Shown here: positions 23,701-38,679 of the stretch, piece by piece
Layout: every line of letters starts with the position of its first letter
Numbering within the stretch: the stretch's first letter is position 1
DNA from: SAR116 cluster bacterium AG-321-K23
Lineage (GTDB): Bacteria > Pseudomonadota > Alphaproteobacteria > Puniceispirillales > Marisalimonadaceae
Length of the DNA stretch: 64,000 bases
Assembly: GCA_003284565.1 (NCBI GenBank)
Contig: QBXO01000004.1
Coordinates: forward strand, 1 to 64,000
Reading direction: 5' to 3'
Notes under the pieces: model-generated
The model's input: the letters and a program-made list of their open reading frames with translations, nothing else
The model's database searches: none
Told to the model about the DNA's origin: nothing
Program-made: the position numbers and the translations under genes

Positions 23701-26166
23701 AATTTCTTAGTATCTTCTGAATAACTTTGTTTTTTAAACAAAATCTTTTCTTCTGTTAAGTCAACAAACTCTCTTACCGCTGTTATACCATAAGAATGAC
23801 CTGCACCTTCCGAACGCTCCTTGAAAAGCCCAAGGATAGGGATGTCTTTATCATTATTTACAATTTTAGATCTTAAGTGCCAATCAAGAGAACTTTGAAC
23901 AATTGTTTTAAATCTCACCCCCCCAACAGGAGAAAACATGTTAGGAAAATATTTTTTTAATGAAGGATCAGACGTATCTAAATAATTAGGTTCAAAAAAT
24001 TCACCACCTGAGTAACTTTCTACAGTGCATAATCCAACCTTACCCATAGTTTTCATAAGTGATTTTTCAGAAGCTTTAACAAACTTGTAGTAAGCTGAAG
24101 TTTCATTTTGTGAATATTTTTCTTTTATTCTCATTTCAACACATAATGGGTAAATAGCAGCAGCTCCAAAACCTAGTGTGCACGCTATATGATGCGACGA
24201 ACAAATTTGACCACTCTCAACTATAATTGAAACATTAAATCGTAAACCCTCATTAATAAGACTTTGATTTATGGCTGAAACTATAAGAATTAATGGTATT
24301 ACCGCCTTTTTGGCATCAACATTGGTATCTGAAATTATAATTATTCCTCCACTAGATGATGCAAACTCGCATATATTTGAACAAATTTTTTCAATTTGAT
24401 CTTTTAAAATTCGTTCATTTTTTTGAGCGTTGTTATGATCAGGTTCATACAAAATTTCAAAATTTTTAATTGGAGTATAATTCTGGTTTTTAATTTTATT
24501 TAAATCGTCAAGTTTTAAAATAGGAGAATCTATTATTATTTGTGGAAACTTCTTATTTAAACTTTTAGTTTTAGATCCTAGTGATACCCTAAGTGTCATT
24601 CCATCCGCTTCTCTGATTGAGTCAAGAGGAGGATTAGTTACTTGTGCAAACTTTTGTGAAAAATATTTAGCCATACCACCTTCTTGATCAGACAATGCAT
24701 TAATTGCATTTCCATAACCCATAGCAGAAACTTTTTCTGCTCCAGTTTCAAGCATCGGATCCAAAAAAAATCTAAAAGTTTCTTGATTATGATGATAAGC
24801 AACGTATTTAGCTGAAAAATTATTAATATTATCTATTGAATTTTGACTACCATTAAATTGTTCGATTTGGTGCAGCTTAACGCTGCACTCATGTAAAAGT
24901 TTTTTATAATCAGTTTTAGAAGAAAGAAGTTTTAATGCAGCTTCTGTATTATATGTTTTTTGTTCTTTATGGTTGTAATATAGGATACCCCCTGCCTCTA
25001 TTCTTCCCCTAGAAATAATTTCTTCTTCTGGGAAACTTATTTGTCCTGCTTCTGACATAGCTGCTAAATAATCAACAGTTTCAATTGTTCTCAACGGTCT
25101 AAGACCTAGTCTATCAAGTCTAGCACCAATAACATTTCCGTCTCCAAATATAACAGCCGCTGGACCATCATTTTTTTCTTCAAATAATGAAAAATATTCA
25201 AACATTGCTATAATATCTTCAGATAAATTTTTGTCTTTCTCCCACGCTGGTGGCATCATAGAAATTACAGCAGAAACTATGTCTAATCCATCTTCAAAAA
25301 TTCTATTTTGTAAAGTTTGATCCAATCTACAACTATCAGATTGACCCTTTGGTCTTGTAATATTTTTATTCTTAGATCTATAGGCTGCGTTTTCTGATAA
25401 AATATTTTTTTTATTTGTATTTAATTCTCCGTTATGCGCTATCAATCTAAAAGGTTGCGCCATAAACGGATGAGGTTCAGTGTTTGTTGAAAACCTAGTA
25501 TGAAAATATAAAGAAAAAATCTTATGAGATTTGTTATTTAAATCTTTAAAATAAGGTATAATCTCATTTGATTTTAACCTACCTTTTAATACCTGTAGCT
25601 TTCTGGATAAGGAAAGAGGATACAACTCATCTAACTTCTTATCATTAAATGCTACTGCTTCAATGTCTAGTAAACATTGGTGTATAGCTTTATCTATATT
25701 TTTATCATTAATGTTTTGAATACTAAAAATAAATTGCTTTATAATTAGTTGAGACGATTGAGATATTTCATTCAAAACTGATTTATTTACAGGCACATCT
25801 CTTGATTTAATGAGTTTAAAGCCATTATTTTCTAAAGTTTTAATAATTAAGTTATTAGCGATTACTTTGTTAGCTGTATTTTTTGGGATGAAGAAATTGC
25901 CAACTACAAATTCTCCAAATTTTAACGTTTTGTTTGTGATTTTTGAAAAAAAAATCTACTGATAAATCAATTGATATTCCTGCACCATCTCCAATTCCCT
26001 CAGAAGACATCCCACCACGATGGGGAACTGAGCACAGAGCTTCATGGGCCTTTATTAATAATTCATGAGTTTGTTTACTATCTTTTTTTGTAATAAAACC
26101 GACACCACAACTGCTTTTTTCAATATTGTGGTCATATAGTAATACTGTTTGTTTTTTATTATTCAT
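20745..26166 (-). pseudogene. gltB: Glutamate synthase large subunit (GltB), frameshifted; ORF fragments 20745-25796 and 25870-26166
   Basis: N-terminal fragment has SSCGVGF; large fragment has LIAHNGELNTN, GEGGEHISRYGTIRASKIKQFASGRFGV, CVMAKNCNIKCPAGL. Removing one T from the T9 run near 25946-25954 joins the frames; span is 5422 nt = 3x1807+1. Confidence 0.82.
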
Positions 26167-26365
26167 GTAAATCCCGCATAATTTTTATTCTGTTTAATGC
26201 AAAATGATTAACTTTTACTCTGTTATTGATAGATTTCAGACATGCAAAAAAGGCAATTCACTCATTTTGTTTAATAATGTGTGTGAAAAGATCAGTTAAA
26301 TGCTCAAAACAAATACAAAAATCAAGATCAAGTTTGAGAAATTTTATTATTACTAATCTGTGAGA

Positions 26366-26420
26366 TTTTGTAGGGATTCCCAATATCGAACCGGGAACCT
26401 TTGCAACACTGGTTTTTGAG
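26366..26420 (-). repeat. Degenerate att-like tRNA-Leu 3' fragment
   Basis: ttgtagggattcccaatatcgaaccgggaacctttgcaacactggtttttgag resembles the tRNA-Leu 3' part (about 9 mismatches in 53) and has related downstream sequence to the 28.2 kb copy. Confidence 0.8.
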
Positions 26421-26706
26421 TTGCTTTATAACACTTTTCAATAATCACTATAGTCAATTGTTACTAGACATTCCACCAATTGCAAATTGCTAGTTATTCT
26501 GTACTGTAAACACTATCAAGCCAGTTTAGTTGTTTTTCGTAAACTTTTTCGTACCTTTTTTAACAGTTTTGCAGAATAAGTTGACGATGATTTCTTAAAC
26601 TACTTGTCCGGGATTTTAAAAATATTTCCATTGGAACCTGATATAGATAATGTTTATGGAAATCGTGCAAAGTTTATAGAAGTTAAGTTATAGAGGTTAT
26701 ATTATC

Positions 26707-28026
26707 ATGTATCTTTTTAGAAAGTATTTCATAATTTCATTTATTGCTTATTTTATTTTAGGAGATTTAGCTCTCGCTAACTCAAATGAAAAAATAATTG
26801 TTTCGGATATTTCTATGCCCAAATATTTTTTTGCAGATCAAATCAATAAGACTTGTAAAATGAAAAAAGATACAAATGAATTTTACTCAAATAGTCTTTT
26901 TTCTGATTTTGATCTCAAAAAGAATAATAATTATCAATGGTTGGCAAAACTAAAGGATTATAATTGGGTAGAAGATCATGCCAAAAGAAGTGATAGTCTT
27001 GATGTTTTTTTTCATAAATTAACTGACAGAATGGAGTATCTACACGCTACTTTGGTTAATAGCTTAATTGACGGAACCATTGAAGTTCAAGCAGATAAAG
27101 CAATTGACTTAATGGTTTCTTGGGCAAAAGCAGATTTTATCATGCAAACAACTACAATTTCACAAATTAAGGAAATGATCAAGGCTGGCACTTTTTCATC
27201 TTGTTATCAAGGTAAAGGAGATGAAAGGGCTAAATGTCACTGGCATGCTGCACAAGAAGCAGCCAGATATGCTGGTCAATTTGGTATAAATGCTAACTTA
27301 GTTAAGCCTTACATGAATAAAAATGAGCTTGCAATAATTGAAAAATATTTCGTTTCCTTATATAAAAAGTATATTCATCCTTGGTATTTTTTGACTGGAG
27401 CTGGCTTAAAAAATATAAATTATGGCTTTTACCAAATGGGACATGGTGCAATTAGTGTTCTTGCATTTGCACATTGGAATAATGACAAAAAACTTGTTAG
27501 CAACACTTTTAAATCTACTTTAAGGCACATTAATACTTTGGTGCTCAAAGATGGTTTCATTAACAATAATAGCTTTAGAGGTGTAAGGGGTTATTGGTAT
27601 CACGGAACTGCACTTAACAATATGTTAGGAATTGTTGCATTAGCAGAAGAATACAATTATCCAGTTAGTGATAATATCCTTAACAAACTTACTGATGCTG
27701 TGAATTTTATGGATAAAGATGCTATAAAATACCTTAGTTGGTTAGAGAAACTTCCTAGAAAGAAAAGCTTTAGTGATGGTAAAGCTTACCTTAAACATAA
27801 TGGGGAAAATATTTACGTAGGGAATGCTAGTTGGAAACACAAAAATTCAAGAAATCATATGAAAAGTTCAGCATTGTTTTTAGATTATTTATCAGAAACT
27901 TATACTAAAGGAAAAATCAATAGAGATAGAAAAGAATACAAGATTTATAATTATAAAAGAAAGAAAACAGGCCTAGGTCTTAGTGATCAGGAGTTAGGTT
28001 TTAATCCTAAATGTATTTACAGATAA
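26707..28026 (+). CDS. Secreted alginate-lyase-like protein (tentative)
   Basis: Signal peptide; NNNSFRGVRGYWYHGTALNNMLGIVALAEE resembles the alginate lyase alpha/alpha-toroid family. Confidence 0.5.
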   Translation: MYLFRKYFIISFIAYFILGDLALANSNEKIIVSDISMPKYFFADQINKTCKMKKDTNEFYSNSLFSDFDLKKNNNYQWLAKLKDYNWVEDHAKRSDSLDVFFHKLTDRMEYLHATLVNSLIDGTIEVQADKAIDLMVSWAKADFIMQTTTISQIKEMIKAGTFSSCYQGKGDERAKCHWHAAQEAARYAGQFGINANLVKPYMNKNELAIIEKYFVSLYKKYIHPWYFLTGAGLKNINYGFYQMGHGAISVLAFAHWNNDKKLVSNTFKSTLRHINTLVLKDGFINNNSFRGVRGYWYHGTALNNMLGIVALAEEYNYPVSDNILNKLTDAVNFMDKDAIKYLSWLEKLPRKKSFSDGKAYLKHNGENIYVGNASWKHKNSRNHMKSSALFLDYLSETYTKGKINRDRKEYKIYNYKRKKTGLGLSDQELGFNPKCIYR

Positions 28027-28189
28027 AAAAAGTTTATGCACTTCCTTGATTTAAGGTTTTAACTTTAAATAAATTTAACACTCTTAATTTGCCTTTAGAT
28101 GTTAAACTTAAGCTGAGAAAGAAATAATTAAACTATTTAATTGAAATTACTAAGAAACTCGGGAAACGAAATCTACCTTAATTTATGAG

Positions 28190-28245
28190 GTTTGGTAGGG
28201 ATACCCGGAATCGAACCGGGAAGCCTTGCGGCACTGGTTTTTGAG
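28190..28245 (-). repeat. attL: 56-bp exact direct repeat of the tRNA-Leu 3' part
   Basis: gtttggtagggatacccggaatcgaaccgggaagccttgcggcactggtttttgag identical to 38592-38647, offset 10402 bp. Confidence 0.93.
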
Positions 28246-28385
28246 TTACTTGATGACACTTATGTATAATCAACATAGTCAACTTAATCGTTGTCTAACC
28301 TAGGATAATAATCACTACCCTTTAAACATTGTAAACAGAATCAAGCCAGTTTAGTTGATTTTCGTACCATTTTTCGTACCATATT

Positions 28386-29483
28386 TTAAGAAGTGTATGA
28401 AATCCATTTTTCGTATATTGAAATCATGTAATCATTTTTATTTGATTTAATTAAGATTTCTTTTGCTTTTCTAAAATATTTATTTGCTTCAAGTTTATTT
28501 TTATTCAAATTAGGCCAAGATAAAGATGCTTTACCTTTTAAAAATAACACTCGATGATATTCTTTTGCTTCTTTTAAATACTCTTCCGCTTCATTTAAAA
28601 AAACTAGTGCTTTGTCATAATTTAAATTTTTAAATTGATCTTCTGTATAAAAATCAATTGCCAATTTATAACACCTAAATTCCATACTTTTATTAATGCA
28701 ATTATTAGCAAATTTTATTGCTTTTTTAATATTAAAATAAGATTTAAAATTTTGAATATTTGCCTCTTTTAACCAATAATTAGCACTTTCTTTTTTTCCC
28801 TTTTTTAAATCACTTTTGTGAAGATTTATATAATCGAAATAAAGTTTATTACTAAATAAATTAGCTAACTCATAATCGGCATCTGAGTTTTTATTACTAG
28901 CTTTTGAAGCCTTAATTAAAAGAGATAATCCTTTATCTAAGTCTTTTTTTTCTGTCTTTAAATAGAAAATTTGTCCTAAGAAATACTTTGCTAGACTAAC
29001 CATTGCAGGAGGATATTCTTTTTCAGCAGATTTTTTTAACCAATTTAATTTTTCTGAATTATCCTTTGATATTTTCCATAATTCAAATTGAGCTTCACGA
29101 TTTTGTAATCTTGCAGATTTCAATAACCAATAATTTTTGTTTAAATTTGTTTTTTTAACAACAATAACTTTTGGGCAATCAAAAATTTTAACAAAATTTT
29201 CAAACACTTTAATGTAATTATATAATTTAAATGCAGCTTCTGAGTTGTTCTGTTCAGCAGATTTATAATACCATTCACACGAAGAATAGCTTCTCGAATT
29301 AGGAATTGAACCGTTAAAAATAGCATCACCAAGCCATAATTGTGCAGTTGGGTCACCATTCTTAGCATATACTATAATTTGGCTAGGCGACATTTTCAGT
29401 AAATCTTGTTTAGTTAAATTTTCACTATAAGAAGCTTTAGAAAAAACTAATGCGAGTAATATAATGTAGAGATTATTTTTCAT
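28386..29483 (-). CDS. Secreted Sel1/TPR-like repeat protein
   Basis: Signal peptide, repeated AxxxLxxxxxxG-like segments (GDPTAQLWLGDAIFNGS, WYYKSAEQNNSEAAFKLY, WLKKSAEKEYPPAMVSLAKYF). Confidence 0.65.
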   Translation of the reverse strand: MKNNLYIILLALVFSKASYSENLTKQDLLKMSPSQIIVYAKNGDPTAQLWLGDAIFNGSIPNSRSYSSCEWYYKSAEQNNSEAAFKLYNYIKVFENFVKIFDCPKVIVVKKTNLNKNYWLLKSARLQNREAQFELWKISKDNSEKLNWLKKSAEKEYPPAMVSLAKYFLGQIFYLKTEKKDLDKGLSLLIKASKASNKNSDADYELANLFSNKLYFDYINLHKSDLKKGKKESANYWLKEANIQNFKSYFNIKKAIKFANNCINKSMEFRCYKLAIDFYTEDQFKNLNYDKALVFLNEAEEYLKEAKEYHRVLFLKGKASLSWPNLNKNKLEANKYFRKAKEILIKSNKNDYMISIYEKWISYTS

Positions 29484-29527
29484 ATTTTAACTTTACTAAA
29501 TTTCCTTAATTAATTATATTGTTAGCA

Positions 29528-29587
29528 GGTATTTAATCAACCAACTTGTACGCCTTGGCATCCAGCCTAAAGTACTAAAGCGGAGGC
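29528..29587 (+). promoter_or_regulatory. Structured 5' leader, copy 1
   Basis: ggtatttaatcaaccaacttgtacgccttggcatccagcctaaagtactaaagcggagg; GTAC/GTAC outer and GGC/GCC inner pairing; ends at the RBS of the 29592 ORF. Confidence 0.55.
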
Positions 29588-29591
29588 ACAA

Positions 29592-29837
29592 ATGACTTCA
29601 AATAAATTATCAAAAAAAGATCAAGACTTTGCTAATGCAATGGCTACTAAGCTTCGTTTGAATAGAGAAAAACTTAAACAAACTTTAACCCCAGACGAAA
29701 AAATTAACCAACTTACTCCTGAACAAAGAGAACAGATTGGTGAATTTAGGTTATCAATTATTCGTGAAGGTCTAAAAGAATTTCCAGGTTTAGACCCAAT
29801 GGATGCACTTCAAATGTTAGAAGAATTTGGAGGTTAA
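29592..29837 (+). CDS. Small hypothetical protein (81 aa)
   Basis: ORF with RBS gcggagg; no recognised family. Confidence 0.6.
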   Translation: MTSNKLSKKDQDFANAMATKLRLNREKLKQTLTPDEKINQLTPEQREQIGEFRLSIIREGLKEFPGLDPMDALQMLEEFGG

Positions 29838-29860
29838 GAAAACTTTATAGTCAAACTAAA

Positions 29861-29918
29861 GGGTATTTATAAACCAACTTGTACACCCTGTCATAAAGAC
29901 AAAAGTACTAAAAAGGAG
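29861..29918 (+). promoter_or_regulatory. Structured 5' leader, copy 2
   Basis: ggtatttataaaccaacttgtacaccctgtcataaagacaaaagtactaaaaaggaga; same architecture as copy 1, inner pairing changed to GTC/GAC. Confidence 0.55.
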
Positions 29919-29925
29919 AAAAACA

Positions 29926-30117
29926 ATGGCTAAAATCGAATCTATTAAATATTTAGATAAAGATGACCCAATTTATAATGGTAGACCAACAATATCTTCA
30001 CACAATAATAAAGTAGAACTTGTAAAGTTAAATAAAGAAATGAGTAGAGCTGAAAAAGAAAAAGCTCTTACTGAAGCTTTAATCCGTCAAGGATGGAAAT
30101 TAGTGGAGGATAAATAA
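29926..30117 (+). CDS. Small hypothetical protein (63 aa)
   Basis: ORF with RBS aaggag directly after leader copy 2; stop overlaps the next start. Confidence 0.55.
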   Translation: MAKIESIKYLDKDDPIYNGRPTISSHNNKVELVKLNKEMSRAEKEKALTEALIRQGWKLVEDK

Positions 30118-30575
30118 TGGCATATTATGAATATGAATTTCCTCAACAAAAAATTTTTGAGGTTAAAGATTTACCTTCAATAAATAATTCTAATAAACTT
30201 TATATTGATAGTGAAAAACCACTTCAAAAAAACAGACCTAAAATAAAACCACAAAAGGTAATCTTTTTATTTTCAGTTGAATGGATGTGGTCACCTGCAC
30301 ATAACAGAGTAGATAGTTATTTTATTAATATAAAACCATCCAGGTATTATCTTTGGAATAGTTTTTTTGACTGCCATAGCTTTTCAGATTATTGGGATTT
30401 TATTGGATACACAGATAATAAAAAAGGTGATCTACACGAAATTTCTATGAACTTTATAAAAAAATACTGGGAAATTGAAGCCAAAGATTCATGTCTAGAT
30501 CATTTCCATGTCATTAGTATGGAGGGTTTGTTGAAAGTGAGTGATATAAAGTCTATTGGAAGAGATGTTTGGTAA
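30117..30575 (+). CDS. Hypothetical protein
   Basis: 152-aa ORF translationally coupled to the previous ORF (taATGg). Confidence 0.55.
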   Translation: MAYYEYEFPQQKIFEVKDLPSINNSNKLYIDSEKPLQKNRPKIKPQKVIFLFSVEWMWSPAHNRVDSYFINIKPSRYYLWNSFFDCHSFSDYWDFIGYTDNKKGDLHEISMNFIKKYWEIEAKDSCLDHFHVISMEGLLKVSDIKSIGRDVW

Positions 30576-30601: not shown

Positions 30602-31654
30602 TTAGTTAATGATCTGCATTAGATCATTATGGATGCTTTGCCAATTTTGGTCTAAATTGATAGACTTGATAGATACCTTACAGTCTCTCCAGATGAAGTC
30701 TTCATTCAGAGATTCTTCGCCTATAGGATTAGCATATAACAAAATCCCATGTATTTTTTTATTAACAACTAGTTCATCTTGCATATTCATCATGTAAGAA
30801 GTGATTTGACGTAAGTGTTCAGATTTAAATTTATCCTGACCATAAAAGCTATCTACTAAAGTTTTCTTATAGTATTTAGTATCTATTATAATCACCTCAT
30901 CTTTATTACTAAGTGTAATGTCAGTTTTTTGCTTTGGAACTAGCTTCAAATCCCCTCCGAGAGACTTAAATTGCCAGTCTAATTGTTCTGATGTTTTTAC
31001 TTTAAACTCAGATTGTTCATATTTATAAAAATTGCCTACAAATCTCTCAAAAATGTCTGACATTCTTACTTCGTCATCTAATATATCTTTGAATATATAG
31101 TTACCTTGTTTTTGATTAGGCATTTTCAAATTATCTAACATTTTACAAATTTCTATTGGTAATCTGTAATAGTTATTATTTTGAGACAATTGAAACTTTG
31201 AGAAATATGAACTCAAATTATCTTGAGTGTTTACATCATTAAAAAATTTTAAAATTGAATTAATTTCTTCTTTGAGGTGTTTCTTTAGCTTTTGATTTTT
31301 TAAAAGATTCAAGAAGCTTCTCTTTATAATTTTATTTAAAATACTATCTACTGATAATTCGGAAAATCTGCAGTAAAGCTTATTTGAAATTTGAAAATTA
31401 TTTTGAATACTTTTTTTAAAATCAATTTTACCTTTGATAAACTGTTCATTAATTAATTTTGGCTTATAGTCTTTATGTAAGCCTTTTTTTATAATTCTCT
31501 TAACTGACTTTAAAAGCATATTAGCCATTAAATTTGGCAAATCAGGACTTTCATCTATTTCTAACTTTAATGATCTGCCTTCATTAAATTTTTCCCATGC
31601 ATATAAAAATACATAATATAAATTCTGAATTTTAATGTGGTCTTGTATTATCAA
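30602..31654 (-). CDS. mcrC: McrC-like subunit of type IV (5-methylcytosine) restriction system
   Basis: C-terminal PD-(D/E)xK-like segment LVPKQKTDITLSNKDEVIIIDTKYYK; overlaps mcrB. Confidence 0.8.
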   Translation of the reverse strand: MIIQDHIKIQNLYYVFLYAWEKFNEGRSLKLEIDESPDLPNLMANMLLKSVKRIIKKGLHKDYKPKLINEQFIKGKIDFKKSIQNNFQISNKLYCRFSELSVDSILNKIIKRSFLNLLKNQKLKKHLKEEINSILKFFNDVNTQDNLSSYFSKFQLSQNNNYYRLPIEICKMLDNLKMPNQKQGNYIFKDILDDEVRMSDIFERFVGNFYKYEQSEFKVKTSEQLDWQFKSLGGDLKLVPKQKTDITLSNKDEVIIIDTKYYKKTLVDSFYGQDKFKSEHLRQITSYMMNMQDELVVNKKIHGILLYANPIGEESLNEDFIWRDCKVSIKSINLDQNWQSIHNDLMQIIN

Positions 31655-33627
31655 GATAACAACTCAGCTCTAAGCTCTTCAACTTTTTCAGGTCTATCAA
31701 AATAGTACTCTTCTAAAAGTGGAATAATTTGATTATCAATAACCTTCTTGTACCACTCAATACCATAAGTTAAGTCATTATTGGATGGGCAGAAAAAACT
31801 ATGACCAATACAGTAACCTGGCCCAAGTTCTAGGTTCTCATCTGAAATTTTTTGATTTATTGATTCCATGTTATTTATGATTTTATCTACAACAGTTGAG
31901 CTTACTTTTTTATCTAAAAGAAATTTTTTGAAATCAGGACTTGCAAACTCTGGCACAAAAGTAAAAAAAGAAAATCTACGTCTTAGAGCGTAATCAACAA
32001 CTTTTAAAGACCTGTCGGCTGTGTTCATTAGGCCTATAATGTGAATGTTTGAAGGAATATAAAATTTGTCGTCTAAGGAATATAAGAGCTTAATAGCATG
32101 CTCCGGGCCTCTCTTATTCTCTTCAATACTAACAAGAATTTCACCAAATACTTTTGTAATATTAGCTCTGTTAATTTCATCAATCATAATAACGTAATTA
32201 TTGTCAGTATCTTCTTTGGCTTTCTCACAAAAATTGACAAATTGGCCTGGAGAAAGCACAAATTTACCGTCATTGTTGGGCCTTATACCCATAATAAACT
32301 CTTCATAAGAATAATTTTCATGAAAAACTAAATTCAATTGTCTATTCACATCGCCAGCTATATACCGAGATATTTTTTTAGCTATAAATGTTTTTCCAAC
32401 ACCCGGTGGTCCTTGGATAATAATATTTTTTTTGATTTTGAGTTCTTCACAAATAGCTCTAAAGGTATCTTTAGAAAAAAATGTGTCTTTAATCATTAAG
32501 GAGATATCGTCATTATTTTCTAAAGAAAGTTCTGATGTTTCATTTCCAAAATAAAATTCGTTAATTTTTTTTACATAGTCAGTGTATTTTGTAATATTTG
32601 TAAGAGTTTTTGTTACTGCTCTATTTCCAAAAACTTCCTCATGATTCATCTCTTTTAAACTTAACCATTTGACCTTTCTAGTATGAGGATGATTTTCATC
32701 TTCTTGATATTCATAATCACCTTGAACTTCACCTGCAGCTAATAATTTTTTTGTTCCTTCTTTAACAAAAACTAAATCTCCATTTTTAACTGTCTTAACA
32801 AAATCAAAGCAACACAAAACATTATTTCTTGGTTTATTTTCCCTAGATGGTTCAAGCTCAATCATCTTATTCTCTATTTCTTGTTTTGTTTTGAATTTTG
32901 AGAGATCACCAATTTGCCATCCAATTGAAATAAAGTTTTGAGACTTAAATTCATCCCAATATACTGCTTGTTCACCAGCAGCAATTATCCAATAATTTTT
33001 TTCTGAAAAAACTTTTCTTAAATTAGAAGACACGCCCTTATCTAAAAGATTATCATAGCAATTAATCAAATCATTCAAATATGATTTAATTAAATTGTCA
33101 TCAGGCAATTCCGTTTTACTAATTAGCTTATGCATGCAAATACCTGGACCATACCTCATTGCAACACCGCCTGTTGCTGCCAGATCAAATTGTTCATGTT
33201 CAAATTTGAAATCAAATTTCTGCATTTTTTCAAAAAAAGGTCTAGCTTCAGTTGCTTTTTCTAATAGATATTCTGCACCACCTCTTCTCCCATAGTTATC
33301 TCCAGGACCAGTTATTCCTTGTCCAAAGCACAAATAAAACCCTGTCATATCATGTTTAAATAAAGCAACTATATAAAACCCATCTTTAGTATCCGTAGCT
33401 TCCTTCTTATTCAAAATTGAACAATGAGGGACTTGTGCCCAACTACCTTTTCCACAACTAACCTTTACGTCTAAATCATCTCTATCTTTTGTAATTTCTT
33501 CCTTTATCCAATCTCTTAATTCTTCAAAAGCTCTATAAGTTGGAAGATCACTTCCAAATGATCCACTTCTGTAGTCAGTTGGATAATTTAAAAATATTTT
33601 TTCAACAATAGATTTGAATTCATTCAC
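31651..33627 (-). CDS. mcrB: McrB-like AAA+ GTPase with N-terminal MrcB_N/DUF3578-like and EVE-like regions
   Basis: GPPGVGKTFIAKKI, VIMIDEINRANITKVFGEIL, MNTADRSLKVVDYALRRRF; N-terminal YLCFGQGITG...GGAEYLLEKA; EVE-like NGDLVFVKEGTKKLLAAGEV. Confidence 0.87.
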   Translation of the reverse strand: MNEFKSIVEKIFLNYPTDYRSGSFGSDLPTYRAFEELRDWIKEEITKDRDDLDVKVSCGKGSWAQVPHCSILNKKEATDTKDGFYIVALFKHDMTGFYLCFGQGITGPGDNYGRRGGAEYLLEKATEARPFFEKMQKFDFKFEHEQFDLAATGGVAMRYGPGICMHKLISKTELPDDNLIKSYLNDLINCYDNLLDKGVSSNLRKVFSEKNYWIIAAGEQAVYWDEFKSQNFISIGWQIGDLSKFKTKQEIENKMIELEPSRENKPRNNVLCCFDFVKTVKNGDLVFVKEGTKKLLAAGEVQGDYEYQEDENHPHTRKVKWLSLKEMNHEEVFGNRAVTKTLTNITKYTDYVKKINEFYFGNETSELSLENNDDISLMIKDTFFSKDTFRAICEELKIKKNIIIQGPPGVGKTFIAKKISRYIAGDVNRQLNLVFHENYSYEEFIMGIRPNNDGKFVLSPGQFVNFCEKAKEDTDNNYVIMIDEINRANITKVFGEILVSIEENKRGPEHAIKLLYSLDDKFYIPSNIHIIGLMNTADRSLKVVDYALRRRFSFFTFVPEFASPDFKKFLLDKKVSSTVVDKIINNMESINQKISDENLELGPGYCIGHSFFCPSNNDLTYGIEWYKKVIDNQIIPLLEEYYFDRPEKVEELRAELLS

Positions 33628-34443: not shown

Positions 34444-34488
34444 TGCACGCACAGTATCCCACCCCTAGAGGGTAGGCTTGTTCGTGCA
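34444..34488. terminator. Nested inverted repeat between convergent genes
   Basis: TGCACG...ACCC-ctaga-GGGT...CGTGCA overlapping the stop of the RepA-like gene. Confidence 0.4.
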
Positions 34489-35673
34489 CATGTAAAAATT
34501 ATCATCTTTTTCAATATAACCAAGGCTTAAAAGTTTATTTAATGATCTACTCTTTCTCATTCTGCTTGCATTCTTAGAAATATCCTCATCAAGTATATAC
34601 AAATCGAATTCTTCTTTGGTAATGCCTTGATTAATTAAATCATAAACCTTTATATCTTGATTATTAAGATGGTCACTTCTTTGATCAATTGGTTCAATAA
34701 TAGTTGTTCCATAATTACCAAAAGGAGCTGACTTTTGTACTATTTTATAATGTCCTTTTAAACCTCCCTGGGTAGCTCTAGATCGTTCTAACTCCCAAGT
34801 GCCAGTATCTTTACAGTTTTGCAGTTTAGTAATTCTTAAATGATGATCTACTGCACCCATAACACTTGAATGACCTCTTGCTCCTTTAGTTGGGTCTTTA
34901 CCAATGTGATGAATGAGAACAATAAGAGAGTTTGTTCTTTGCTGAATAATTTTAATATTCTGTAAAAAATGACTTAGTTCATTCTCTCTTAAATTAACGG
35001 AAGCCACAGTATCAAAAACGATCACTAATGGTAAGTTTTCATATTTATTTGAATGAAATTTATGGTTTAAAAATTCATTTATTTTTCTATCAAATCTATA
35101 GGGTATATCTGTCTCAACTTCAAAAGGTTCATCATTTAAAGTTAGATCTGTACAAACTTTATAATCATAATGACCTTTACCCACTCCTTCAATTCTCTCA
35201 GACAACCATTCTTTACTGTTCCATTGTTTAAATGGATGATCATCGAGATTAATTTGATATTCTCTAATAAATTCTTCAACTATATCCTCATCCATAATGT
35301 GTGTAATTACAGCTTCTAATTGCTGTTTGTCTTCTCTAGACAAATCTATTTGATCAGTTGTAGTTCTTATTAAATGTCCAGGAACCTTAAAAACTTCTTT
35401 AATATAATTTTTAATTCTTTCCATAGCTGATTGTTCACCATCACCGCACCAATAAAAAAGCTTACACTTAGATGTTTTCCTTCCAAAAAAATTTTGTCCA
35501 CTCATGCAAGAAAAAATTGCTTGTAAAACAAAAGTTGTTTTTCCTGATCCATAGTTTCCATAATAAAGACAAGTTCCTTTTTCAGGTAAAAATGTATCAA
35601 TTAAAAAAGATTGAGGATTGTGTTTTTCGTTTAGTAAATCATTTCCATTTTTAACAGTAAACTTATATGACAT
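34465..35673 (-). CDS. RepA-like AAA ATPase (RecA-fold, AAA_25-type) of a plasmid/phage-like replication module
   Basis: Walker A YYGNYGSGKTTF, Walker B LPLVIVFDTVAS, IVLIHHIGKDPTKGARGHSSVMGAVDHHLRI. Confidence 0.8.
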   Translation of the reverse strand: MSYKFTVKNGNDLLNEKHNPQSFLIDTFLPEKGTCLYYGNYGSGKTTFVLQAIFSCMSGQNFFGRKTSKCKLFYWCGDGEQSAMERIKNYIKEVFKVPGHLIRTTTDQIDLSREDKQQLEAVITHIMDEDIVEEFIREYQINLDDHPFKQWNSKEWLSERIEGVGKGHYDYKVCTDLTLNDEPFEVETDIPYRFDRKINEFLNHKFHSNKYENLPLVIVFDTVASVNLRENELSHFLQNIKIIQQRTNSLIVLIHHIGKDPTKGARGHSSVMGAVDHHLRITKLQNCKDTGTWELERSRATQGGLKGHYKIVQKSAPFGNYGTTIIEPIDQRSDHLNNQDIKVYDLINQGITKEEFDLYILDEDISKNASRMRKSRSLNKLLSLGYIEKDDNFYMCTNKPTL

Positions 35674-36065: not shown

Positions 36066-36458
36066 TCATTTCCCCTCCCCTAGAACCCCACCGTTATGGG
36101 TAACATTTGGCAGACGTAAAGATGAGATCACATCAGTTCTTTGTACTTCTAATGGTGGAATTGGATCGCTTACTCTTGTAGGAATAAAATATCGATTACC
36201 TCTTTTGTAACCCCAGGGATGCTTCTTCCCTATAGGCTCTAAATCGATGATATATCCATTATCTCTAAGGATACCGATATTCCTGGTAACCAAAGCTCTA
36301 GAAACTCCTATAAGGTCTCCAAGGGTAGATTGATTGGGATAACAGATTTGATTGGCTGAAGTAAAACAACAAAGAGCTGACAATGTCCTGACTACATTAG
36401 GCTGAAGTCTAGGATCAGATACTGCTCTTGAAGGCATGATACTAAACTTCATTTTCAT
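36066..36458 (-). CDS. Winged-HTH DNA-binding protein of the element
   Basis: LSALCCFTSANQICYPNQSTLGDLIGVSRALVTRNIGILRDNGYI helix-turn-helix pattern. Confidence 0.7.
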   Translation of the reverse strand: MKMKFSIMPSRAVSDPRLQPNVVRTLSALCCFTSANQICYPNQSTLGDLIGVSRALVTRNIGILRDNGYIIDLEPIGKKHPWGYKRGNRYFIPTRVSDPIPPLEVQRTDVISSLRLPNVTHNGGVLGEGK

Positions 36459-37348: not shown

Positions 37349-38461
37349 ATGGCTATAACTAAAATGAAGAATGGTCGTTGGAGGGTTAGTGTTTACCAAC
37401 CCAATGATGCACCAAGAATAAGAAAGGTTTTCAAAACTAGAGAAGAAGCTAGAAAATTTGAAACCATCACCAAAGGAGAATTAGCTCAAGGGAAAACTTT
37501 TTATACTAAAAAAGAAGACCCAGGCAATGAACTCTTTTCTAACTTTCTAACTAAATGGCACAATGGTAAAGAAAGTTCTGTTACCGAAGGTACTTTCAAA
37601 AGACTTGGTTATGACTTAAAGAATTATATTATACCAACTCTTGGTTCTATTAAGCTATGTGATATAAGTTACGATCACGCCATTCATTTAAGAAAAAAAA
37701 TGTTGGCTAAAGGGTTAGCTAAACAGACTATCAAAAATTGTGAAATAACTTTGAAGCAATCTTTAAGATTCGCAACAAGACAAAGAAAAATTCCTTTTTA
37801 TCCTTTAGAAGGTTTTGATCTTATCAAAGTTAATGATGCAAAGAAAGTAGATGCATTATCTGATAGTGATCAAGAAAAACTACTAGAAGTTTCTCGAGAA
37901 TATTCTGATAGAGTTAATGATCAAAGACGTTTCATCTTCTTCTATACTCTTCTAAATACTGGGATGAGATATGGAGAGCTTATTGGTCTTAAATGGATGG
38001 ATATAAATCTTGATGAAAAGTTATTAAAAATAGAAAGACAATGTATTTTTGTTGAGAGTGATTCTATTCCTAAGTTATCTATATTGAAGACTTTAGGTAG
38101 TGAAAGAGAAATTGCTCTTACAGATGAAGATATTAAGACTTTCAAAAAGTATAGAGCTTGGTTGTCAGAGATGATGTTACCTCAATCGGATACACCATTT
38201 ATTCCAAAACTAGATGGAAATCACCTGAATAAAAACTTTGGTAGAACAACCATGACAATTTTAACTAGAGAAGCTGGATTACCCTACTATGCTCCTCATG
38301 GTTTAAGACACACTCATGCTACCAATTTAGCAAACACAGAAATACCTATAAAATTGTTATCCCATCGATTAGGTCATGCTTCTGTAAAAACAACTATGGA
38401 TAGATACGCTAAAGTAAAGGCTAAAGCTTCAGTTAAGTATCTAAAGAAAGTCCAAAAGTAA
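37349..38461 (+). CDS. int: Tyrosine recombinase (integrase)
   Basis: TGMRYGELIGLKWMDI, HGLRHTHATNLA, LGHASVKTTMDRYAK; adjacent to tRNA-Leu. Confidence 0.93.
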   Translation: MAITKMKNGRWRVSVYQPNDAPRIRKVFKTREEARKFETITKGELAQGKTFYTKKEDPGNELFSNFLTKWHNGKESSVTEGTFKRLGYDLKNYIIPTLGSIKLCDISYDHAIHLRKKMLAKGLAKQTIKNCEITLKQSLRFATRQRKIPFYPLEGFDLIKVNDAKKVDALSDSDQEKLLEVSREYSDRVNDQRRFIFFYTLLNTGMRYGELIGLKWMDINLDEKLLKIERQCIFVESDSIPKLSILKTLGSEREIALTDEDIKTFKKYRAWLSEMMLPQSDTPFIPKLDGNHLNKNFGRTTMTILTREAGLPYYAPHGLRHTHATNLANTEIPIKLLSHRLGHASVKTTMDRYAKVKAKASVKYLKKVQK

Positions 38462-38594
38462 GATGCATATAGTGTCATCAAATACTCAATTTCGTACCAT
38501 TTTCGTACCACGTTTAGATAAATTAGAAATGTTGGTTGAATTGAAAATTACGAATAATCTTCCGAAATCGTTATCTACCTTTATTTGTGAAGTT

Positions 38595-38679
38595 TGGTAG
38601 GGATACCCGGAATCGAACCGGGAAGCCTTGCGGCACTGGTTTTTGAGACCAGCGTGTTTACCTATTTCACCATATCCCC
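38595..38679 (-). tRNA. tRNA-Leu(CAA)
   Basis: Reverse complement GGGGATATGGTGAAATAGGTAAACACGCTGGTCTCAAAAACCAGTGCCGCAAGGCTTCCCGGTTCGATTCCGGGTATCCCTACCA; class II variable arm, anticodon loop CTCAAAA, encoded CCA. Confidence 0.93.

Follow-up and report, generated by a model that had tools for sequence, protein, structure and literature searches.

Tandem SAM-V leaders precede orphan small reading frames on a tRNA-Leu island of a SAR116 bacterium

The window is a 64,000 nucleotide stretch of contig QBXO01000004.1 (positions 1 to 64,000, forward strand) from SAR116 cluster bacterium AG-321-K23, assembly GCA_003284565.1. Two leaders of about 60 nt are found on its forward strand directly before consecutive small ORFs, each ending at its own Shine-Dalgarno sequence, as the earlier note had described. 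The first leader (copy 1, 29518..29588) is 5' of an ORF of 81 aa (29592..29837) and the second (copy 2, 29855..29921) is 5' of an ORF of 63 aa (29926..30117). The Shine-Dalgarno GGAG is at 29582-29585 in copy 1 and at 29915-29918 in copy 2, 6-7 nt 5' of the ATG. The leader copies described in the note are at about 29525-29585 and about 29859-29918. A third ORF on the same strand, of 152 aa (30117..30575), shares one base with the stop codon of the 63-aa ORF and is probably co-translated with it. This third ORF was overlooked in the earlier note, as were the pseudoknot helix P1 of the leaders and the mobile island that surrounds the operon.

The three ORFs belong to orphan families, designated A (81 aa), B/D (63 aa) and c6 (152 aa). 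The orphan families tested had no significant match in Pfam, NCBIfam or PHROGs, and the two compared with PADLOC had none there. Variation in the 81-aa ORF is biased by codon position (42, 18 and 28 at positions 3, 2 and 1), and its structure model is all-helical with a pLDDT of 83; a fold search with this model gave no match. The structure model of the 63-aa protein is of low confidence. Families B and D form a single family (hhalign 95.5%, E 1.5e-8), and the C-terminal part of the 63-aa protein has homologues on phage contigs. The c6 relatives of the 152-aa ORF share 29-39% identity with it (E down to 1e-38), and in those other genomes they are preceded by a SAM-V leader of their own. Since the 81-aa and 63-aa ORFs are unrelated, plain gene duplication is ruled out, and the leader pair is not a by-product of ORF duplication, in agreement with the first reading of the sequence.

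The operon is inside a 10.4-kb island. Its inner border is attL (28190..28245), a 56-bp copy of the tRNA-Leu 3' end, and attR (38592..38647) is inside the tRNA-Leu(caa) gene (38595-38679, minus strand). Arm-type repeats TTTCGTACCA are found near attL (28358..28386, forward strand), and their partners at 38488-38515 are next to the island's tyrosine integrase (37349..38461, forward strand; PHROG integrase, 5.6e-62). The minus strand encodes a winged-helix, replication-initiator-like protein (36066..36458; PHROG replication initiation, 1e-4), a replicative helicase-like AAA ATPase (34465..35673; Pfam AAA_25, 1.6e-14; PHROG primase/helicase) and a McrBC-type restriction pair (30602..33627; Pfam McrBC, 4e-33; MrcB_N, 2.8e-28), made up of a McrC-like gene at 30602-31654 and a McrB-like gene at 31651-33627. 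In a relative, G007, about 0.4 kb separates the start of gltB from dedA, and this interval, which contains an intact tRNA-Leu, represents the empty site; the window aligns to this genome in two blocks whose junction is the tRNA. The 12.2 kb inserted in the window consists of the 10.4-kb element and an older element of 1.8 kb. The tRNA 3'-end direct repeats, the adjacent integrase and the empty site in a relative are those of an integrative element.

The island is similar to tRNA-integrated marine islands and phage satellites (tycheposons, PICMIs and PICI-like elements), with a length of about 10 kb, a tyrosine integrase at a tRNA, a replication gene, defence cargo and no capsid genes. It differs from them in that no packaging or capsid-hijacking gene was recognised on it with Pfam and PHROG profiles. 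SAM-V cargo on such elements is not described in the literature found. The older nested insertion at the same tRNA-Leu (26420-28190) contains an alginate-lyase-like ORF (26707-28026) and has at its border a third, degenerate copy of the tRNA-Leu end (26334..26420, 72%). At 25796-25870 the gltB gene of the window is broken into frames of 98 and 1683 aa, while in three relatives it is a single open frame of 1806 aa; this is a frameshift, either real or a sequencing error.

Both leaders have a common fold. In copy 1, P1 pairs 29527-29530 with 29552-29555 (AGGT/GCCT), the third strand AUUUA is at 29531-29535, P2 pairs 29546-29551 with 29572-29575 and 29577-29578 around a bulged U at 29576, and P3 pairs 29557-29559 with 29565-29567. 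The corresponding elements in copy 2 are P1 at 29861-29864 with 29885-29888 (GGGT/ACCC), the third strand AUUUA at 29865-29869, P2 at 29879-29884 with 29905-29908 and 29910-29911, interrupted by the bulged U 29909, and P3 at 29890-29892 with 29898-29900. The presence of P1 makes the fold a pseudoknot. The pairing of GTAC with GTAC noticed earlier is present in both copies (29548-29551 with 29572-29575; 29881-29884 with 29905-29908), and so is the covariation of the inner stem, which reads GGC-ATCCA-GCC in copy 1 and GTC-ATAAA-GAC in copy 2. A CC at 29541-29542 in copy 1 can pair with the GG of the Shine-Dalgarno (29582-29583), as can the CC at 29874-29875 in copy 2 with the GG at 29915-29916.

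The two leaders are members of the SAM-V class, Rfam SAM_V (RF01826), for which the Rfam gathering score is 41. Copy 2 exceeds this score with 43.3 bits (E = 1.3e-5, 721 nt searched). At a low threshold copy 1 matches the model from end to end with 31.3 bits, which is below the gathering score (E = 0.005, 721 nt searched); a search of its own genome also gave 31.3 bits, and it is conserved beside copy 2. Matches to RF02914 and RF02089 on L004 and L005 were below cut-off and were set aside.

Further homologues with covariation were found, and the pair counts for both copies are based on 33 distinct leaders from the same order. Standard pairs occupy 98.8% of the P1/P2/P2a/P3 cells in this set, and 7 of 15 pairs, across P1 (the pseudoknot), P2 and P3, have changes on both sides. 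When the partners are slid by 1-3 columns pairing is only 30-55%, and it is also far lower in shuffle controls. The CC/GG (or U-G) pairing with the Shine-Dalgarno is standard in 97% of cells. A covariance model made from the leaders of the order recovers phage and metY copies outside or distant from it with E < 1e-9. Taken with the Rfam E values and with conservation of the leaders at orthologous positions, the resemblance exceeds chance. The covariation is real, and the earlier proposal of a structured cis-regulatory RNA placed for translational control is borne out.

Pocket nucleotides were numbered by our own mapping onto the crystal structure of the metY SAM-V RNA (PMC6061858). By this mapping the UUU, UUG and CUAAA of both copies are U8-U10, U19, U20, U47 and A48-A50. 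Both copies differ from the solved RNA at two positions, G11 of the third strand being A and A18 being C. In the solved RNA, A18 pairs with the SAM-contacting A50 (PMC6061858). The A11/C18 leader type also precedes a homocysteine S-methyltransferase gene followed by a metY-like gene (L089, L090), and in relatives metY and metK follow leaders of a G11/C18 type. Genes for metY, metK and homocysteine S-methyltransferase are classical SAM targets. As the changes are common to leaders of classical targets, SAM is still the best guess for the ligand, and C18 may be treated as variation inside the SAM-V class.

A SAM-V fold whose specificity has shifted to another ligand is an unlikely explanation of the leaders. 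Some known riboswitch classes do include variants with changed specificity, and the systematic differences in the pocket region (A11 and C18, and in family D also U8 to G) go with orphan targets. However, the same A11/C18 type serves the homocysteine methyltransferase-metY operon and the C18 type serves metY and metK, and the equivalents of U47, A48, A49, A50, U9, U10, U19 and U20 are kept. The family D leaders (L010, L011, L013, L014) have AGUUA in place of AUUUA in the third strand, which changes the nucleotide in contact with U47 in the solved RNA; they nevertheless score above the Rfam cut-off.

Less probable again, and by some distance, is a mobile ribosome-binding cassette or protein-binding leader in which the SAM-V sequence is kept without SAM sensing. 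The spread of the leader before many unrelated small ORFs on mobile DNA would fit such a cassette, but the pocket nucleotides are invariant while the stems covary in the 33 leaders, which is needless for a mere ribosome-binding site. The new RNA class suggested in the earlier note has practically no probability and is refuted by the existing Rfam entry, for although copy 1 alone is below the cut-off, copy 2 is above it, and the P1/P2/P3 fold, the CUAAA and UUG core and the targets in relatives are the same.

Both leaders are very probably SAM-V riboswitches with SAM as ligand and translational OFF control, one for each small ORF, in an operon that is cargo of the island. Counting against this reading are the score of copy 1 below the gathering score, the changed G11 and A18, and targets that are not recognisable methionine genes. 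The Rfam placement, together with the covariation in 33 leaders, makes SAM the likely ligand of the window leaders and translational OFF control the likely mechanism.

In the published model for SAM-V, binding of SAM makes the P2 triplex more stable and the Shine-Dalgarno is masked by CC/GG pairing, giving a translational OFF switch (PMC6061858). Each of the window leaders would accordingly form an H-type pseudoknot (P1, P2, P3), in which the AUUU third strand and P2 would make up the SAM site. With SAM bound, P2 would be stabilised, the CC would pair with the GG of the Shine-Dalgarno and translation of the ORF behind the leader would stop; as SAM falls, the small ORFs would be translated. There would be one switch per small ORF, with the 152-aa ORF probably on the second switch via translational coupling. 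As cargo of a mobile tRNA-Leu island, the operon would supply small accessory proteins when the host is short of SAM. Candidate triggers are sulfur or methionine limitation and phage-driven loss of SAM. Exhaustion of sulfur in Pelagibacter raises the expression of all genes that follow SAM riboswitches (PMC5069961), from which we infer that the small proteins of the island would appear at low SAM.

The window leaders share with the metY/bhmT SAM-V (RF01826) of Pelagibacter ubique the H-type pseudoknot of P1, P2 and P3, the AUUU third strand, the bulged U before AAA, the Shine-Dalgarno at the 3' end, the lack of a terminator and the setting in marine Alphaproteobacteria. They differ in having a 3-bp P3 with a variable loop, A11 and C18 for G11 and A18, a place on a mobile island with orphan small proteins rather than methionine genes as targets, and a switch before each of two successive ORFs. 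Tandem SAM switches elsewhere likewise place two in one transcript region, but there two classes precede one gene, whereas in the window each of the two SAM-V copies has a gene of its own behind it. SAM-II control is mostly transcriptional, and no match to SAM-II (RF00521) was found at the window leaders. The pseudoknot architecture and SAM site of SAM-II are nearly identical to those of SAM-V (PMC6061858). Riboswitches on marine phages are known as such: a parallel in setting is the glutamine riboswitch (Melnitz, Mosig; PMC9004378), which likewise senses a metabolite and is carried by mobile or viral DNA in streamlined marine bacteria, although its ligand and RNA class are different and its targets are tmRNA- and glutamine-related rather than orphan small ORFs.

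A search of 61 relatives with the Rfam model found RF01826 matches in 22, at 37 places. In this search, which is free of the CUUGU bias of the pattern scan, orphan small ORFs are found in all but two of the listed leader-ORF combinations. The 81-aa family is behind a leader of the copy 1 type in 8 of the 22 matching genomes, and a pattern scan of contigs adds more. The complete array of SAM-V, 81-aa ORF, SAM-V and 63-aa ORF recurs in about a dozen SAR116 genomes, with leader starts 329-333 nt apart, and there are 26 distinct tandem SAM-V pairs of all kinds.

A total of 158 non-redundant SAM-V-like sites were catalogued, most of which precede six recurring orphan protein families; many of the sites came from a pattern demanding CUUGU, which leaves too few canonical AUUGU leaders in the set and biases the ratios. 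The ORF clusters at these sites are B/D (38), c1 (17), A (14), c5 (13), c6 (11), metY (9) and c3 (6), followed by homocysteine methyltransferase (2), metK (1) and smaller groups. Close variants of the leader precede metY (L055, L057, L058, L060) and metK (L098). Other SAM-V cassettes of the genus are close to restriction genes, of type III, NgoPII type and others (L066, L067, L068, L073, L077), and terminase-small-subunit-like genes are near SAM-V in L068, L080, L081 and L086. On three Rhodobiaceae contigs (L128, L140, L146) conserved SAM-V-like leaders (GCGGAGGTAAA) have no start codon at the expected place.

The RNA itself is a further SAM-V member, and the interest of the pair is in its gene context, which is apparently unreported. 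SAM-V in the literature found is tied to methionine supply genes, whereas most leaders catalogued here precede small proteins of orphan families. Mobile islands and phages are not mentioned in the SAM-V literature found, a body from which most subscription journals are absent. Some of the catalogued SAM-V-like leaders are on mobile islands and some are between phage structural genes. This suggests that, in streamlined ocean bacteria, the sulfur or methylation state of the host is read by mobile elements. Control by SAM-V would also indicate when the orphan proteins are made, at low SAM, which opens their role to testing. It is possible, though we put it forward tentatively, that marine mobile islands and phages rely on SAM-V as the same means of control, so that a fall in host SAM would release small accessory proteins from a pool that they have in common. 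These proteins would serve in host take-over, in defence or in satellite-phage conflict, and the 63-aa family, which is also present as an overprinted frame in a phage gene, would connect island and phage.

The SAM-V core pattern was found on 22 viral contigs. One of these matches, on L099, is without a Shine-Dalgarno and ORF and is probably due to chance. The tested viral leaders with an Rfam match score 32.8-42.4 bits. Portal and/or major-head genes are present on L094, L111 and L101, and L094 also has a large terminase; the leaders on these contigs are at L094:7072-7133, L111:6475-6534 and L101:10595-10653. In the manner of moron cargo genes, the leader and small ORF of L094 and of L111 lie between structural genes but on the opposite strand. 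The leader was not found in annotated phage records by blastn, and a protein search of the viral contigs with the 81-aa ORF found nothing. On a 37.7-kb viral contig (L098) a tandem of SAM-I/IV and SAM-V (541-642 and 725-793) precedes metK, with a helicase-like gene adjacent; to our knowledge such a pairing has no precedent.

The C-terminal part of the 63-aa protein is encoded on five viral contigs (L005-L009) with 65-76% identity. There it is a second reading frame (L005:4938-5123) inside an ORF of about 750 codons (L005:3989-6241). Substitutions in the overlap are synonymous in 54% of cases in the small frame and in 20% in the long frame; just upstream of the overlap this is reversed, with 11% synonymous in the small frame and 58% in the long frame. 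Third positions of the long frame account for 158 of 256 variable sites in the flanks and for 5 of 21 in the overlap (binomial 5e-4). For this small sample of five related contigs, the pattern is suggestive of an overprinted small frame. An ORF of 47 aa (L042 / L084:7900-8043) combines the N-terminal motif of c1 (MTNIVEFP) with the C-terminal part of family B, so that the small proteins controlled by SAM-V look modular.
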